A stretch of 64,000 nt of DNA from Asterochloris sp. CNOR1 (lineage: Eukaryota; Chlorophyta; Trebouxiophyceae; Trebouxiales; Trebouxiaceae), in contig OZ017757.1 in assembly GCA_963969365.1 (NCBI GenBank), positions 1,550,001 to 1,614,000 on the forward strand, given 5' to 3'. Position numbers and translations under genes: made by a program. Shown one piece after another: positions 52,522 through 61,480 of the stretch. Under the pieces are notes generated by a model. It was not told the DNA's origin, searched no databases, and worked only from the letters and a program-made list of their open reading frames with translations. The stretch's first letter is position 1; each line of letters starts with the position of its first letter.

Positions 52522-55500
52522 TCACTTGCCAAATGTCACTAAATGCTTCAAAGAGGTGAGGGATGGGGGCATGTGCAGTTCATTCGTTCGGCGCAGCTTC
52601 TTCATCGTGCGCGGAGGGAGCAGGCCTCGCCCCCTGGCAGACTCTGCAGGGGTCCAGTGGGCAGTGGAGGCAGCCTGCATGCCGGCGGGGCCTCGGGGGC
52701 CGCCTGCCGTCTGCTGGAACCCGGCCGCAGCAGCAGGAGCAGCGCGCGTTTCCCCTTGCAACACCCCATACTGCAGCGCATTCAGGACTTTGGCTGCCTC
52801 ACGGTCCTCCTGGTCTGTGCCTGGCACTGGAGTGCCATCAAGGGACCTGGCCAGGGCAAGGGCGGCACCACAGTCGCCATGCAGCAGGCTCTGCAAGCGC
52901 TTGGCTCTGGCAGCAGACTTGGTCTTGTCAGCATCACCGCCCGGCCAGTCCGAGTCTTGGTCAGATGAGGGCTCCTCATCCTCATCATGTACAGTGACGA
53001 AGCCTGCGGGGGTGGACTTGCGGGCTGCTCGCTGAGGCCGGCGTGTGGCAATTGTGGACATTGGCTGCCTGTTGGCCATGCCTGCAGGTATCAAATAGGG
53101 TCTTCTGAAAAGGCCGGTGTGCTGAACAGTGTAGCCACCGCATCGCCCTGCAGGCGCCTGCCTGCCTGCCGCTTGTGCCTTGCCTTCAGGTTGAAGAACG
53201 GCATCAACATGCATTGAACCCACAAAGCTGCAGCCATGCAGCCAACACAGGCTCACACGTATGCAGCCACAGCACGAAGAGCTGCAGTTGTGCGAGGTCA
53301 CTGCACAACATGTGGAACCAAGTGCTTCTCTGCCAACAGATGCAAATGCCCTAGGGCTCATATGCTGCCAGGAGCTTGCCTGCGCTCTCCCACAACAATG
53401 CCTCCTGCTGCCGCCAACATGCCTGTCACACGGGGAAGCCCCTGAGCAGACCCCCACTCAGTCCCTTTCAAGCAGACCGACAGGCAGTGCCTGAACTCAC
53501 CTTCACTGGTCCCACTTGATGCCTCTGCTGCCAAGGCGCGACCTACGCCACTTGGCCCCCCGCCGCGGCTGCTGCCTGCAGGTGCTGCCAAGCCCGTGGC
53601 GGCATCCCCCCTGCTGTCCGCCACCACAGCAGCTGCTGCATGGGCCTCCCACAGGAGGGTCTGGGTGCGCAGGCGCTGGGCTGCCGGCTGCCAAGAGTCC
53701 AAGTCCCTGCTCCTGCAGCCATATTCACGAAGACCTGTGATCTACAGGCACTGCAAGGGCCTCATGCATGGGCAGGGCCCGGGCCCTGCCATTTGAAAGC
53801 AGCTGTCTGGCGCCAGCCCCACTGCAGGAATACTGCAGATGGTCCATGGACTCTGGTGAGCGGCAGTGGCCCAAACTCGCTGTGCATGCCCATGCTAAGT
53901 GCTGTCAAGAGACGACCTGATGGCCTCTGGCACTCAATTAGCCAAGACTGTCCATGAAACCAACCGCGCCTCAGCACTCAAGACGTCGACCCAAGCCTGC
54001 CAGGCAGGCAGTGCATTCCTGCCACCAGCACTGCTGAAACAAAATCATACCAAACTGTCTAATATTGCAAGCCTGCCACCTGAGCCCAGCTGACCTGGCG
54101 CGCTTGTGGGATTCTGTTTTGACGCCGCGCTTGTTTGCAAGGGCAGCCTCAGCTGGCTGGTGGGCGCCCAATGCCTGGAAGCCAGCAGGTCGATGCGGGC
54201 TGCCGAGGGCTGCTTGGTCAGCCATCTCAGCATCTGCCTCCTTGGGAGCACAGCGCTCATCATCTGGTCTGAGCAGGCCCTTCAGGCGCCGCCACTCCCT
54301 GCACCCATGAGCATAAGCCTAGGGACAGGCTGCCCAACGTGTACTTGTTGTCCCAGCCGCTGAATGGGGTGTCAGACAGAATGAGGAGCTGCACCTTGTG
54401 TGGCACAGGACGTCTAACAACAGGCTGCCCTATAGCCAGGCGGTGGAGCTGCCAGGCAACAGCCCTTTTGGGAGGCCAGTGCAAGTCAGGCCACCAGGCG
54501 CACTGTAAGGTCTAGCTGTCGCGACAGGCAGATGCGCACCTGTATCACTTCCGCAGGCTGCAGCTGGGTAGTGCAGCTACGACCAAACAGCCTGGTTGGA
54601 ACGCCACCTGGCAGCACTGCAGGTTGCTCAAGTTCTGGGTGCCGTGCCTTGCATGTGCACACCTGTACCATTCTTCCTGGCGCCTGACTGCAATCAGATC
54701 TTCCACTTTGATGGGCCTCTCCTGCTGCACAGCCGCTGCTTGAGGAGAGGCACCGTCCGTGGCTGCTTCCTGACCAGGTCGGAAGAACACCACCGGTGCG
54801 CTGCAGCACACTGACGGTATCTTTGCACTGCCCAGGTTTCACATGCCTCTGTCGGCCAGCAGAGCTCCCCTCACCCTCACGCATGAACGTCCTTCCTGCT
54901 CATGCCACTTGACCCTTGACCATGTGGAGTTCGAATTGACCTCCTGCAGTAAAAGGCTGGCTTGCTAGCAGCTCACCTATGGCTCCAGCTGGGTTTGCTG
55001 GGCTGTGTCAGGGCAGCATCCAGCATGCTGCCAATGTGCAGCGAGCTCCACCAGTCCTGCCAGGAGCGCTTCTTTGAGCCCTGCTGTGCCAGAAGCCCTG
55101 CCGCCCCCTTGCTCCTGGCACCCCCTGCCTCCGCATCATTGCTGACCCCCAGCAGGGGCCCCAGCATCTCCAGGGGTTGGGAGAGGGGGGCAGCTGAGGG
55201 GTTGGCTGGGAGCATCTTGAAAAAGGCTTCTCGCGCCGGCTGGGAGGGCCTGAGTGGGGCTGGCAGCAGCCCTGGTGGCAGCTGCAGCACAGCCAGGCGC
55301 TGCATGGCCAGCAGCAAGGCGGCCCCCTCTAAGTCCTGCTGCTGGGATGTGCTGCATGCCATGCCCGGCCCCACATGTGGCGCCTGCAGCCCAGAGAAGC
55401 ACTTGCTGCTTGTGTCACACAGAGTACCCTGTGCATGATGTCAGACGGGCTTTGACATGATGGCCGCGCAGCAAAGCAGGTTTTGAACAGGGACAAGCCT

Positions 55501-58500
55501 GAACTGGGAGATGCGCGGGCGCCCTGGTGCGGGGAGTGCAGCCATTTGCGGGGACACAGACTTGCCTGGGCAATCTGCAGCAGCTCCACCTCTAGGCAGT
55601 CACCTGCCTCGGCACCCTCCAATGCAGCCCCGGACACCTGGGCAACTCGCAAAGCAGGTCCATCATTGCCGGCACATATGCCAGGCACCCCCAACATCAC
55701 TGTGTGTGCAGCATCAGCAGAGATTGAGAGTCCCCACAAGCTTCACCTGAACACCAAATGCTGCAGCAAATGCAGCCCTGCCTGCAGCTGCACTTCATCA
55801 TCATGCTGCACATAAGACCCTGCCATCAACTCAGCAAGCACAGACTATTCCTACCTTAGCAATATGCCGCAGCAAGTCCAGCATTGCCTGCAGCTGTGCA
55901 TCAGGGATGAGGATGTGCAGCTGGAGGCACTCCATGCCGACCTTGCAGCCGACAGAGGAGTGTTCCAAGCAGCGCACAACTCGCACTGGCGACCTGCGGC
56001 GCAGTGCGAGCATCGTGAGGTTGTGACAGAGCGTGGCCAAGGCAGCAAGCAAGGTCATGCCGACAATGGGAGCAAAGCTCTGAAGGGAAAGCACAGTGCA
56101 AAATCTGCTGTGGTGAGGTGCACCCAGGCATTGGCAGCAATACATGCTGCTATCACGGCGAGCCAGTGCTGATGTTGCAATCCAATATACAATTGCCATA
56201 CCTCCAGGCACTTTGTGGACAACAACAGCCCAGGAAGCTCACAACCTGAGACGCCAGCATGGGGGCACTGCCCCAAAGCAGTGCCCCAAAGCAGGCACTC
56301 ATGCAGACATGCTTTGAAGGAGCAGCTGGGGCCCGCCTCTGAACATGGAGAGCTGAATGCTGCTCTGATGGGGTGGGATCCCACAGGAGCTTGCACACAA
56401 GCCTCCAGTGCAGCCAAGCAGACCGCTGGCACCAACCTGCAGCGGCAGCGCACGTACGACAGAAATGGCTGGCACCCGCAGATGGGGCACACCAGCGGTG
56501 CCTTGCCCGTGCTGGCAGCTGTCTCCTGGAGGTCATGCGCCTCCTCCACGTCGCTCCTGCGCAGCCTCTCCCGCAGAGCTATCTCGTAAGCGACCCGTAC
56601 ACTCAGCTGGCACGCCACAGTCTGCAGCTGGTATCTGTCCAGCATGATAGCAGCCTGCCTCAGCTCCGGAACCTGTGCTGTGGCAGCTGAGCCGAGCTTC
56701 CCAACACCACTTTGTGAGTGAAGCCCACCCCTTGGCGCCAGGGCAGCCAGCCCATTGGCATCGCCAGCTTGCTGTTGCCTGGCGGCCTGCCTGGCCTCCT
56801 CACACTGTGCTGCCCTCAGCAGGGGAGCACTGATGGGGTCGGGCGCGGGTCTGGGCACAGAGGGCAGGCCTGCCTGCAGCTCGGCCGCCTGTGCAGCAGG
56901 AGCATCAGGCTGCTGTGGTGCTTGCCCCCCTTCTGCCCCCCGCCCGTTGCGGCCAGACGCCCTGTGGGGCAGCCGCTGCTGTCCACTGGTGCCGGCAGGC
57001 TGCGCATGGGGGGGGGGCACCTGCCTCTCTGCAAGTGAGTTGGCAGGAGGTTGCTGTTCAGGCTGCTGGCTGCCCTCACCAGCTGCACCAGCTATGTCTG
57101 GAGTTGGGCTCTGCCCCGCAGGATGCTGAGTGGAGCTGAAGTTGTGGCTCTGCTCCTGCGCACCATCGGGTGGTGCACCAGCCTGCGTCTCAGGCGAGCC
57201 AGCCTCGGACCCCAGCTCCTGACCTGCGCTGGGAGATGCTGAGCCTGGCACAAATCAGGGGCTTTGCCAGTAAGGCAGTCTGTTTGTAGCCTGGCCATGG
57301 TACATGCAGACACACCCTGTCAATGCATTTGCCCAAGTTGAAGGATCTCATTTACGCCAGTTATTGTCACAGTCAGTAGCCGCATCCGCCATCTTGGATG
57401 CCATTTATACATATCCCAATATGTGCTCACCACTCTCAGAGGACTTGTCATCTGAGTTGGCCTGCGCAGCCTTTCTCCTGTGGGCAATTGGCATGCCCAG
57501 CATGAACATGGCTAAGTGCCTCTTCCTCAGCGTCTCTGGGCTGGGAGGAGGGCTGGGAGACATGTCCTCCTGCTGTTGCACCCCAGCAGCTGCGCTCTCC
57601 AGCTCAGCTGCCTGCTTGGACAGTCTGAGCAGGGTCAGGGGCGCTCCCAGGCCTCCCAGCGTGCGGAGCACAGTCTGCTCGTCCAAGGCGCCAGTATGTG
57701 GCTGCTGGAGGGGCACTGAAGCCCCAGTGAGCAGCTGTGGAGGACCAGACTGCTCTCCAGCGGCGCTGCCACGTTCTGGCCTGCTGTCCTGCTGCTCAGC
57801 AGGGCCCCAGTCAGGGCGCTGAGTGCTGCAGGCAGCATGGCCGCCAACTGACAGACATGCCAGTGGCACTTGCAGCAGGCTGAGCTGGCATACACGCCAC
57901 AGCAGCTTGTCAAATGAAAAGGACTGCCGAGCGCTGGTGCCCTGCAGAATGGGGGCCACAATGAGAGCAGCACCACACACTACCAACCCCATTCAGATAG
58001 CTGCAGGTAGGTCATACTGAATGTTTGATGCAGCAATAATAGAGTGAGCCTTTTGCAGTGCTTGAGACTCACCACAGGGGGCGCATACATCGCCTGAATG
58101 CCGAAGGGCAGCCAGTCTGCTGTCGCAAACATCACGCTCTCTGACAGTGTCCACCCATGGTGGAAGCTGCACTGCAGTGCTGCAGGCCAGGTGACTACGA
58201 CCTCGCCCGGGTGCTGCACCACATGCGTGACAGGGCTCCCTGCAGGGCAACTAGACAGGATCTGGCAAGGCTGCCATGCAGATGGGATTGGAAATGTCTG
58301 TGACAGGACAAGCTGTAGAGGGGAGCTGGATGAGATCTCTCAGGACCCATGGCCGCTGCCGACAACATGCATGAGCACCGGTCGGTTTCAGCTGGGGGCT
58401 GCCTCATCCTACAAGGAAGGGAGGGACACCTGGTGTCCATCTCCCACCAGTACTGAGTGCTGCTGCAGGCCGAGCACACAGGCAGAGGGGAAAGATGACA

Positions 58501-61480
58501 GGATGCAGGGCTTCACCCTCTGAGAGTAGTGTGCTGGGTGCCAGCATGGGTGTCTCCAGTCGCTCGCTGGTTTCTTTCTTGCACTGTGTTGTATGCTGCT
58601 CCAGGATTTTCTGCGCCTGCCTGCCATGGCTGCTGGGTACTGCATACCTGCAGAGCAAGAGCTGAGGGGCTGGGAGTGCTGATTCAGCAGCACCACAGCC
58701 AGACCAACACGCACAACCAGATTGTGTCTGCACAACCAGGTTCACAGCTGCCTCCGTTCGTGCTGCACGCTGCTGTCAATCAAGGTGGTGCACAAAGCAG
58801 AGAATACCAAGCTGCATGACTGCTTATCTGCATGCTGTAGCATATGCTTAGGTGGCACAACCAGCAGCCATCAAGACCAGCCAGCCTTGTGCCAATGAGG
58901 CTCAGTCAACAAAGACAGCCTAGCACCAGCAAAGCTCAGCCAGCACGAACAGCTGGTCTGGCGCCAGCAATGCTCGCCTAGAGATGGCAGCGCCCCTGTG
59001 CAGATATGAGATGCTGGGCAGCATCTGCTCTTGGTGGTGCCACGTAGAGCTGGCAAAGACCATGCCGATGTGCAGCTGAGGGGAGGTGACCTTTGGGATC
59101 TCTGCCCCAAACATGCTGAAGATGGATTGTGGGTCCTTGTTGACGTTGTGCAGGCCCCCTGAGGGAACCTGCTGCCTTTCAGAGCAGCCCTTGGGATCAT
59201 GCCTGCAGAGTAGGTTGCTGTGAACCGCCCGCCAGTGGAGAGCAGCACTTCACTGGCAGATCTATTGGCACCTGCCTGTTGGCAGCAAGCTGCCCCACTA
59301 GGCACAGTCAAAGCTAGATACACAGCCATGGCCACTGCTGCAGTGCTCTTGGTTCATAGCAGGCTGCTTTCTGCTGCGATTGCTCGCCTTAGCGGTACAA
59401 ATTGTGCTTTGTGCAGCCTGACCTGAGAGCATCCAGGCCCACTGCATAGTCTACAGTCAGCTCCTGCTGACACATTCGATCCACAACTTGCCTGCAGGAC
59501 AGCCATAGGGCAGCCTGCGCCGTTGCACAACTGACAGTGATGATGGGCACTGCTCCCTCCAGCAGCCTGATGCCTCCTTTCTTTGGAAGGGGAGGCCAAG
59601 ACAGGACGATGACCATGCATTCAGAGGCCAGCAGAACCCAGCTCTTGCTATCAAAGCACTACACGTTGTTGCCCATGCCCAGACACTGGCACATACCAAC
59701 ACCTGTCCATGATGTCTACACGCAAGCCACATTTGGCTGCCTGACATACCAGAAGGCCTGCTCCATCAAGCTCTCTGCCTGCTGCTGTGCCACAGCTTTC
59801 TGACCAGCCTGACCATCCTGCAACAGCGGGGCTTCCTGCAATCAGGCCCCAGCATCCAAAGCCGGTGGTCCAATGTGTTTGGACAAAGGTGGTCACTTGT
59901 CTGACATGGCCTGATCAGGAGCAGAGAACGCTGTGGCCGACCAGCAACTTCTGGCTTCACAAGGCCAGCAAGTTGCGAACAGACCTGGTCGCTGCACAGC
60001 ATCAATACCTCACCTGCTGAGCAATGTGCACTGCTGCCTTGATCTCAGGGTGGGCTGACAGCCATTGCTGATGGAAGGCATTCGCAGCAAAGCGGTAGCT
60101 GTCCTGCGTGTACTTGGCACCCTGCAAAGCCAATTAGTCAGCGCTTTTGCACAGCGGCCTGAGCCCTCTGCACAGGGCAGCATGCCGCTGCCAAGGTTGT
60201 TGTAGCGGCATAGACAAGTACAAACCAATGCGAAATGAGTTAGCAGGCAGCACTGACGCTGGTGGTCGGCCCCCCCTGGGCAAGCCTGTGCAGCATCTGA
60301 CGCTGGCTGGGGAATGTCGACGGGGCGGCCAGGCAGTGCTCAGGGGTCCAGCCTGCAGTGACACGTCACTGAATCAGGTCTGCCTGGGCTCTTTAATATA
60401 ATGGATGACAATGGCTGCCTAGTCGTGACTTGCAAGGCAGAGGCAGCATGCGTCATCCAGCGACTGTTGTTCAGGACTTGCCTGCTGGGGGGATGATCCT
60501 GGCCATGCCTGCAGCAGCCCCTGTTGCGCTGATGCGCCTGATGTAAGCCACCACCTCTGTGAACTCCTCTGCTGATGGGCGAAATACAGGGGCCTCCACC
60601 TGCACGGTGGGTATGTATACACTGAACGCAACACAGCCTGAGGCCAGTGCTGTATGCTGTGTCATGCTGAAGGCCAGGTTGTGCTGTCTTCGTCAGGCAG
60701 GAAGTCCCATTGGCATGAGTCCTAGCACTGCCTGCATCAAGACAGGCATGTCTGCAGCAGACCAAGCTGTCAGCAGTCGAGAGGAGGCACCTGCTGGAAG
60801 CGAGCCACTCCTTGCGCCCCAGTGCGTGGCTGTGAGAAGTGCCCCCTCTGGCCTGCAACTGCGCCAGACTGAGAGGCAGCCGGTGCAGTCCCGTGCCGCC
60901 CTCCTGTGCTAAGAGCCTGCTGATGGTGGGGATGAAGTGCATGCTGCCCACCAGTTACCTCAAACGGATAGCTGGGCTCTGCACCCTCCTGCCACCCCTC
61001 AGCCTGGTGCGGGGGATGGAGTACCGGCTGCCCTCCAGTAGTCCCAGCAGTATGGGACCCTGGCTGTGCAGCCGGCTGGCCCTCAGCATGCTGCTGGGGA
61101 CCGTGTGCTGGCTGCCCCCCGGTCCTGGCAGCAAGGGAGCCCTGCTGTGCAGCCTGCTGCTGCTCTCTTGCTCCTTCAGCCGGGGAAGCTGGCTGTGCAG
61201 AGCCCTGCCAGCCTGACATCCCATCAGTCTGGGAGTCAGGCCGTGCCTCTCCTCCAACCCTTTCGCCCTGAGCGCTGGGTCTGAGCAATGCGTGTCCAAA
61301 TTGGGCCGGCGCCTGGGGAGCTGTTGCAGGCTTGCTGGACAGGTGCTCCGGCGCAGCAATCGCACCCTGGGCTGCTGCGGCTGGCAGTGGTGGTGCAGCA
61401 GCGGCCTTGCTGGTGCCTGCCTGGGACGAGCCCTTGACAGCAGCCTTCCTCTTTGGCCTGAAGCCCGTCATGGCTGCCAT
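52522..61480 (-). CDS. JmjN-JmjC-C5HC2 chromatin protein (KDM5/JMJ14-like), apparently lacking demethylase residues
   Basis: Architecture of H3K4 demethylases. Phase-consistent exons: 61480-60959, 60599-60482, 60352-60258, 60121-60014, 59799-59750, 59491-59423, 59175-58927, 58647-58517, 58239-58073, 57941-57431, 57244-56437 and 55993-55855 (989 residues). A low-complexity Ala/Gln/Pro head is followed by JmjN (EAPVFRPSAEEFTEVVAYI, ARIIPPAG, W-STFPSQRQMLHRL), JmjC (IFSMFGAEIPKVTSPQLHIG, SISYLHRG, YAVPSSHGRQAQKI, VVQHPGEVVVTWPA, FATADWLPFG), a long Gln/Pro/Ala linker, and C5HC2 (CPICGCQPFL, CLEH, CKVGMEC). The iron ligands look altered: WHHQE and ALQCSFHHG. Downstream exons 55383-54977, 54800-54663, 54298-54095, 53712-53501 and 53081-52522 (TGA 52524-52522) are largely phase-compatible and may be its C-terminal region, but the joins around 55854-55384 and 54662-54299 are unresolved. 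A separate gene there, or a stop at 55831, is possible. The second intron uses a GC donor. Confidence 0.82.

Follow-up and report, generated by a model that had tools for sequence, protein, structure and literature searches.

The jumonji gene at positions 61480-52522 on the minus strand of the window (the whole 64,000-nt stretch analyzed, G000:C12:1550001-1614000), here called the WHHQE gene, has an intact gene model but encodes a JmjC protein that has lost two of its iron ligands and also cofactor residues, while related genes of the same alga keep theirs. Judging from its sequence, it is likely a maintained nuclear JmjN-JmjC-C5HC2 gene, related to KDM4 and KDM5, whose product no longer binds iron and 2-oxoglutarate and acts as a chromatin scaffold or adaptor. 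The protein would then be without enzymatic activity, and the gene would have been kept by selection for its scaffold role in the nucleus.

Exon-by-exon reading of the minus strand gave 18 exons from an ATG at 61480 to a TGA at 52524-52522, encoding 1579 aa if exon 7 ends at a GC donor and 1596 aa if it ends at a GT donor. There is no internal stop and the phases of all 17 introns fit. Fourteen introns are GT-AG and three GC-AG, and all 17 acceptors end in CAG. The GC donors lie after 60482, 58978 and 55566, two of them with the consensus AG/GCAAGT. For exon 7, the GC donor (end at 58978) gives an ungapped alignment in which a Trp is changed to Arg; the GT donor 51 bases further (end at 58927) retains the Trp and adds 17 residues. 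Both ends are in frame. The sequence-only reading had placed this exon at 59175-58927. Its end is indeed a usable GT donor, with 58978 as the alternative, whereas for the start we prefer 59202 (after tgcag) over 59175 (after AAG). The two starts differ by 27 bases with no change of phase, and 59202 is favored because all 17 acceptors then end in CAG.

All exons are on the minus strand. Exon 1 (60791..61480) carries the ATG and a low-complexity N-terminal region of 230 aa; its phase fits and it ends at a GT donor, and the open frame holding it has no Pfam match. It is the least certain exon of the gene and, being of low complexity, might belong elsewhere. Exon 2 (60482..60599, GC donor) encodes the JmjN domain (43.8 bits when the exon frame is scored alone, 39.9 bits after splicing), and exon 3 (60258..60352) continues the JmjN-related segment (G-W-T-P-E...), as placed by alignment to solved proteins and by phase. 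Exon 4 (60014..60121; phase, Pfam scan) is a linker between JmjN and JmjC without an ARID match. Exons 5 to 8 were placed by alignment and phase: exon 5 (59750..59835) ends in AF/W, aligned with EFW of KDM5; exon 6 (59423..59491) reads WQVVDRM...VDYAVGLDAL and retains the Tyr of VEYGAD; exon 7 (58978..59202, or to 58927) holds the first half of JmjC including WHHQE; and exon 8 (58517..58647) holds its middle (YAVPSSHG...LLSEG). The domain ends in exon 9 (58073..58239; its frame alone scores 26.8 bits for JmjC) with ALQCSF and FATADWLPFG. Exon 10 (57431..57941) contains FSFDKLLW, which aligns with the post-JmjC segment of JARID2, followed by low complexity. Exon 11 (56437..57244) is of low complexity up to the first half of the zf-C5HC2 finger (from 56489), whose second half is in exon 12 (55855..55993). 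Exons 13-15 (55637-55566, 55383-54977 and 54800-54663) and 16-18 (54298-54095, 53712-53501 and 53081-52522) make up a C-terminal tail of 530 aa (52522..55637).

In the spliced protein, JmjC (PF02373) scored 68.5 bits over positions 1-114 of 114, compared with 63.2 bits in two stretches for the GT-donor version. The JmjN-related and JmjC-related stretches are about 55 residues apart. JmjN and C5HC2 had both been read as kept. This holds well for JmjN, whereas zf-C5HC2 (PF02928) is barely recognized: it reached 23.1 bits in the spliced protein, just above the cut-off of 22, and 13.7 bits in a single exon frame, and it is missing from the genome-wide profile search listing. Compared by eye with the KDM5 paralogue of the alga, the finger has seven of its eight zinc ligands at the expected positions, the exception being the last Cys. 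The Pfam scan of pieces of the protein found no match to PHD, FYR or ARID, and the tail matched no Pfam family. Searching the genome (here and below 56.4 Mb in 21 contigs of the same alga) with the tail matched the WHHQE gene only, so that no second copy was found.

HMMER alignment with solved JmjC proteins, KDM4 and KDM5 enzymes included, ran without gaps through exons 7 and 9 across both iron-site motifs. The first motif (TGG-CAC-CAC-CAA-GAG, 59042-59028, minus strand) reads W-H-H-Q-E and the second (CTG-CAG-TGC-AGC-TTC, 58177-58163, minus strand) reads L-Q-C-S-F, within A-L-Q-C-S-F. The iron triad H, E, H is thus H, Q, Q: the first His is retained (CAC, 59037..59039), Glu is replaced by Gln (CAA, 59031..59033) and the second His by Gln (CAG, 58172..58174). 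These are the two substitutions that the sequence-only reading had proposed, and in the ungapped alignment with canonical KDM4 and KDM5 relatives both stand. This supports its claim that two of three iron ligands are gone, and the loss extends to the 2-oxoglutarate site. The Asn and Lys positions, which we take from KDM4A to hold 2-oxoglutarate, are changed to Ser (TCA, 59007..59009) and, for the Lys of PKxW, to Ile (ATC, 58983..58985; Leu with the GT donor). All of these codons are on the minus strand. Two pocket aromatics are also changed, F>S at 59048-59046 and Y>H at 59072-59070 (minus strand). The WHHQE protein lacks the HxE...H iron site of active KDM4/KDM5-type JmjC demethylases, and it lacks the 2-oxoglutarate Lys (K>I or L) and Asn (N>S). 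Against full loss, the first His and the YGAD Tyr are still there.

The E>Q and H>Q changes each need one base change. From TCA and ATC, any Asn or Lys codon is reached only through two or three, and single sequencing errors therefore do not explain the Ser and Ile. Twelve canonical rows have 41 invariant columns in common, of which the WHHQE protein keeps 23 and has lost 18. On a list of ten presumed pocket residues, eight of the ten were lost against 10 of the 31 other invariant columns (Fisher p 0.012, a value for the GC-donor version only; with the GT donor the Trp is retained and the count is 7/10). The 10 losses outside the pocket count against the reading of a purely catalytic loss.

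We compared the motifs with those of other JmjC genes in the genome, taken from six-frame translated pieces of their loci. The genome scan with PF02373 gave 12 exon-level matches and that with JmjN gave four. A KDM5-like gene on contig C6 (WHIEDH, YHGGFN), a JMJ14-like gene on C2 (WHIED, AYHAGFN), a KDM4-like gene on C8 (HTED, AYHSGFN) and a KDM4-like gene at C6:588k, in which no JmjN was found (WHVED, AYHCGFN), are all intact. Since these four paralogues retain the WHxED, SxNxxHxGxPK and YHxGFN residues, the ligand loss is specific to the WHHQE gene. The other three JmjC loci (C15, C2:3159k and C11) look by eye like members of other subfamilies and lie outside this comparison. The best solved relatives of the C2 paralogue are the rice protein Os05g0196500, presumably JMJ703, and Arabidopsis JMJ14. 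These relatives, together with three matches to exons of the nuclear RuBisCO small subunit and 31 to chlorophyll a/b-binding exons, indicate a green alga. This paralogue (G000:C2:3044500-3054400) has, at about locus 3443-3312 on the minus strand, a finger with irregular Cys spacing (CEVCKCDLWLNAIISPACPGKATCSEH) of which positions 1-46 of 54 were matched.

The tail contains a short stretch resembling histone H3. Exon 18 encodes STIATRRPQRAARKSTPAGFVTVHDEDEEP, in which AARKSTPA (53006..53028, minus strand) shares 7/8 residues with H3 24-31 (AARKSAPA, which holds K27). Among 6000 shuffled versions of the WHHQE protein, 30 reached a 7-of-8 match to any octamer of H3 1-50 (0/300 in a first run). 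Genome-wide, a degenerate pattern for AARKSxPA was found at 14 places, compared with one for the reversed control. Nine of these fall in H3 or H3-like loci, the one on C16 being identified from coordinates and printed letters alone. The other five are the WHHQE gene, a 76-aa frame with AARKSKPA at C18:1445284 whose meaning is doubtful, and three places with Ser instead of Arg. A divergent H3-like frame (G000:C2:2476500-2481000, locus 2617-2294, minus strand) keeps KAARKSAPASGG while its K4 and K9 stretches are unrecognizable; it may be a pseudogene or an odd variant. The tail peptide is a candidate H3K27 mimic, noticed after the fact, and a plain alternative is that it serves as a basic nuclear signal. 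A SUZ12 VEFS box (G000:C1:271234-271506) and E(z)-like exon pieces with CXC and SET (G000:C18:1341481-1343747) were detected. The alga thus apparently has core genes of PRC2, and a PRC2-linked scaffold role for the WHHQE protein is possible. A genome search with preSET_CXC matched nowhere, controls included, and is hence uninformative on E(z).

The sequence-only reading took KDM5-type enzymes as its reference, but other subfamilies fit the protein just as well. Among solved proteins JMJ13 (117 bits), KDM5C (116) and JARID2 (115) match equally well, and identity to 13 relatives is 25.7–35.4%. We calculated maximum likelihood trees with either sequence omitted, with conserved columns dropped, with a profile-mixture model, and with JmjN and JmjC separate. 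The WHHQE protein and JARID2 paired in all eight trees holding both, with bootstraps of 80; 68, 37, 62, 52, 63; 70; and 39 (SH-aLRT/bootstrap 96/80 in the first tree, 89/70 after correction of the rows and 87/39 when conserved columns were dropped). When JARID2 was omitted the WHHQE protein adjoined JMJ13 (75/76), and when the WHHQE protein was omitted JARID2 stayed apart from the animal KDM5 rows. The WHHQE protein was placed, with weak support, among neither the KDM4 nor the KDM5 rows. It shares nine unique states with JARID2 and eight with JMJ13. The pairing is probably due to long-branch attraction, and given the two long branches, the variable bootstrap and the JMJ13 neighbor in the absence of JARID2 we leave kinship with JARID2 open. 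Among the few exon junctions compared, one, a phase 2 intron inside the codon aligned with the Trp of PKxWY, is common to the WHHQE gene and the alga's own KDM5 gene.

Could the losses reflect a damaged or misread gene? A recently abandoned duplicate turning into a pseudogene would account for the missing catalytic residues and the marginal finger, yet the gene is deeply divergent while all its 1579 codons stay open and its 17 introns are usable, two of the lost residues are more than a single substitution away, and the losses cluster in the pocket. In a drift simulation only one of 200 neutral copies was still open at 0.05 substitutions per site and none of 200 at 0.1. As neutral copies lose frame this early, the reading frame of the WHHQE gene must have been preserved through most of the time in which it diverged, and we regard a pseudogene as improbable. 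Misread exons hiding an intact site are conceivable in so far as the model was drawn from genomic sequence and exon 7 offers a choice of donor as well as of acceptor, two of each. Against this, the exons that contain the two sites align without gaps on either side of them, the phases fit gene-wide, and neither donor brings back Glu, His, Asn or Lys, leaving this explanation the slimmest chance of all. With 25.7–35.4% identity, no stop and all splice phases fitting, a decayed pseudogene or a misread exon is disfavored, in agreement with the earlier view that this is not an obvious case of either. On the basis of the alignment, codon distances, phases, pocket-loss counts and the drift simulation, we dismissed a misread exon, sequencing errors, a chance pattern and a recent pseudogene.

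Two further explanations accept the gene as it is read. The protein could be an oxygenase whose metal site is altered, or could use metal non-oxidatively: one His and the Tyr remain, and H-Q-E can be written by shifting the first motif by one residue, as had been allowed for. Such a shift has little in its favor. It requires a gap between the Trp and SISYLH that none of the 13 other rows has, it would point the side chains to the opposite face of the strand, and it would bring back neither the second His as third ligand nor the Lys and Asn for 2-oxoglutarate; we consider this very unlikely. The other is an algal analogue of JARID2, in which the dead JmjC protein recruits or tunes PRC2 and AARKSTPA is methylated or bound as a mimic of H3K27, in the way that EED binds JARID2-K116me3. 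Passages of PMC3034028 and PMC4352895 describe JARID2 as inactive but essential, with K116 methylated by PRC2 and the resulting peptide binding the EED cage. The bit scores point in the same direction, as JARID2 equals the demethylases for the WHHQE protein whereas the intact C2 paralogue scores 169 with JARID2 and 268 with KDM5A. The pairing in all eight trees, the near restriction of AARKSxPA to H3 loci and the WHHQE gene (with one doubtful frame), and the SUZ12 and E(z)-like pieces would also fit. However, the pair joins two long branches with bootstraps of 37–80, shared states are nearly as many with JMJ13, no ARID was matched, and the H3-like octamer arises in shuffles and was noticed post hoc. 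We rate this analogue as unlikely. It is likewise unlikely, and slightly more so, that green algae have a JARID2 counterpart, a demethylase-derived dead PRC2 cofactor with its own H3K27-like methyl-lysine peptide. If they do, AARKSTPA would be an allosteric or targeting signal, and the cofactor would have evolved in parallel to animal JARID2 or be shared with it.

Taken together, we favor a non-catalytic chromatin scaffold. Iron and 2-oxoglutarate binding would have been lost from a KDM4/KDM5-related ancestor, leaving the protein unable to demethylate. The retained JmjN-JmjC fold, zinc finger and long tail make a scaffold role most likely: the protein would be a chromatin-bound scaffold or adaptor that keeps a partner complex at its targets. 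It would thus probably regulate chromatin without itself erasing marks. Proteins with unusual or questioned sites are a warning here: UTY was first called inactive and later shown to be active according to one abstract, and Epe1 (see below) depends on its JmjC domain. Dead or doubtful JmjC proteins are already known from animals and yeasts, and the WHHQE gene with its H3K27-like tail, together with the SUZ12- and E(z)-like genes, offers a test of whether demethylase-derived cofactors have originated repeatedly.

Among the titles listed by a literature search, none pointed to a green-algal JmjC protein already described as inactive, and a single scan of viral contigs and another of prokaryote genomes gave no relatives. 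Passages of a survey of 21 species, two green algae included, state that plant KDM4 and KDM5 groups retain the original His, Glu and His (PMC9029850). Of the known systems, Arabidopsis JMJ13 of the plant KDM4/JHDM3 group is the best solved match (E 9e-33; top identity of 35.4% over 237 columns) and has PGExVVTxP and DWxPFG in common with the WHHQE protein, but it has HVED and YHAGF where the WHHQE protein has HHQE and LQCSF. KDM5/JARID1 and the plant JMJ14/JMJ703 proteins share the order JmjN, JmjC, C5HC2, and the alga's own KDM5 the Trp-codon intron. They differ in their intact pocket and in the PHD, FYR and ARID domains that were unmatched in the scanned pieces of the WHHQE protein. The ARID and PHD that stand next to JmjN in animal-type KDM5/JARID1 thus had no Pfam match in these pieces; plant JMJ14-type members are likewise not known to carry ARID. 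JARID2, the inactive animal PRC2 cofactor (E 4e-32), shares IGMVFxxSxW, LPxIxYLHxGA and SExVxFAT, the loss of catalytic residues, JmjN and C5HC2. A lysine peptide acts like methylated H3K27 in JARID2, for which the WHHQE tail peptide is a candidate only; it is N-terminal in JARID2 and C-terminal in the WHHQE protein. The JARID2 order JmjN-ARID-JmjC-C5HC2 is not seen here, as no ARID was matched, and the substitutions differ, JARID2 also being without the first His that the WHHQE protein keeps. For budding yeast Gis1, one abstract describes the protein as not known to be active (PMC4085034), although another paper reports demethylase activity (PMC5758875). Fission yeast Epe1 (HxE...Y) resembles the WHHQE protein in its non-canonical iron site and non-enzymatic role, with a function that depends on the JmjC domain and no demethylase activity shown according to passages of PMC7192584, but its HxE is intact and only the last His is changed, to Tyr.
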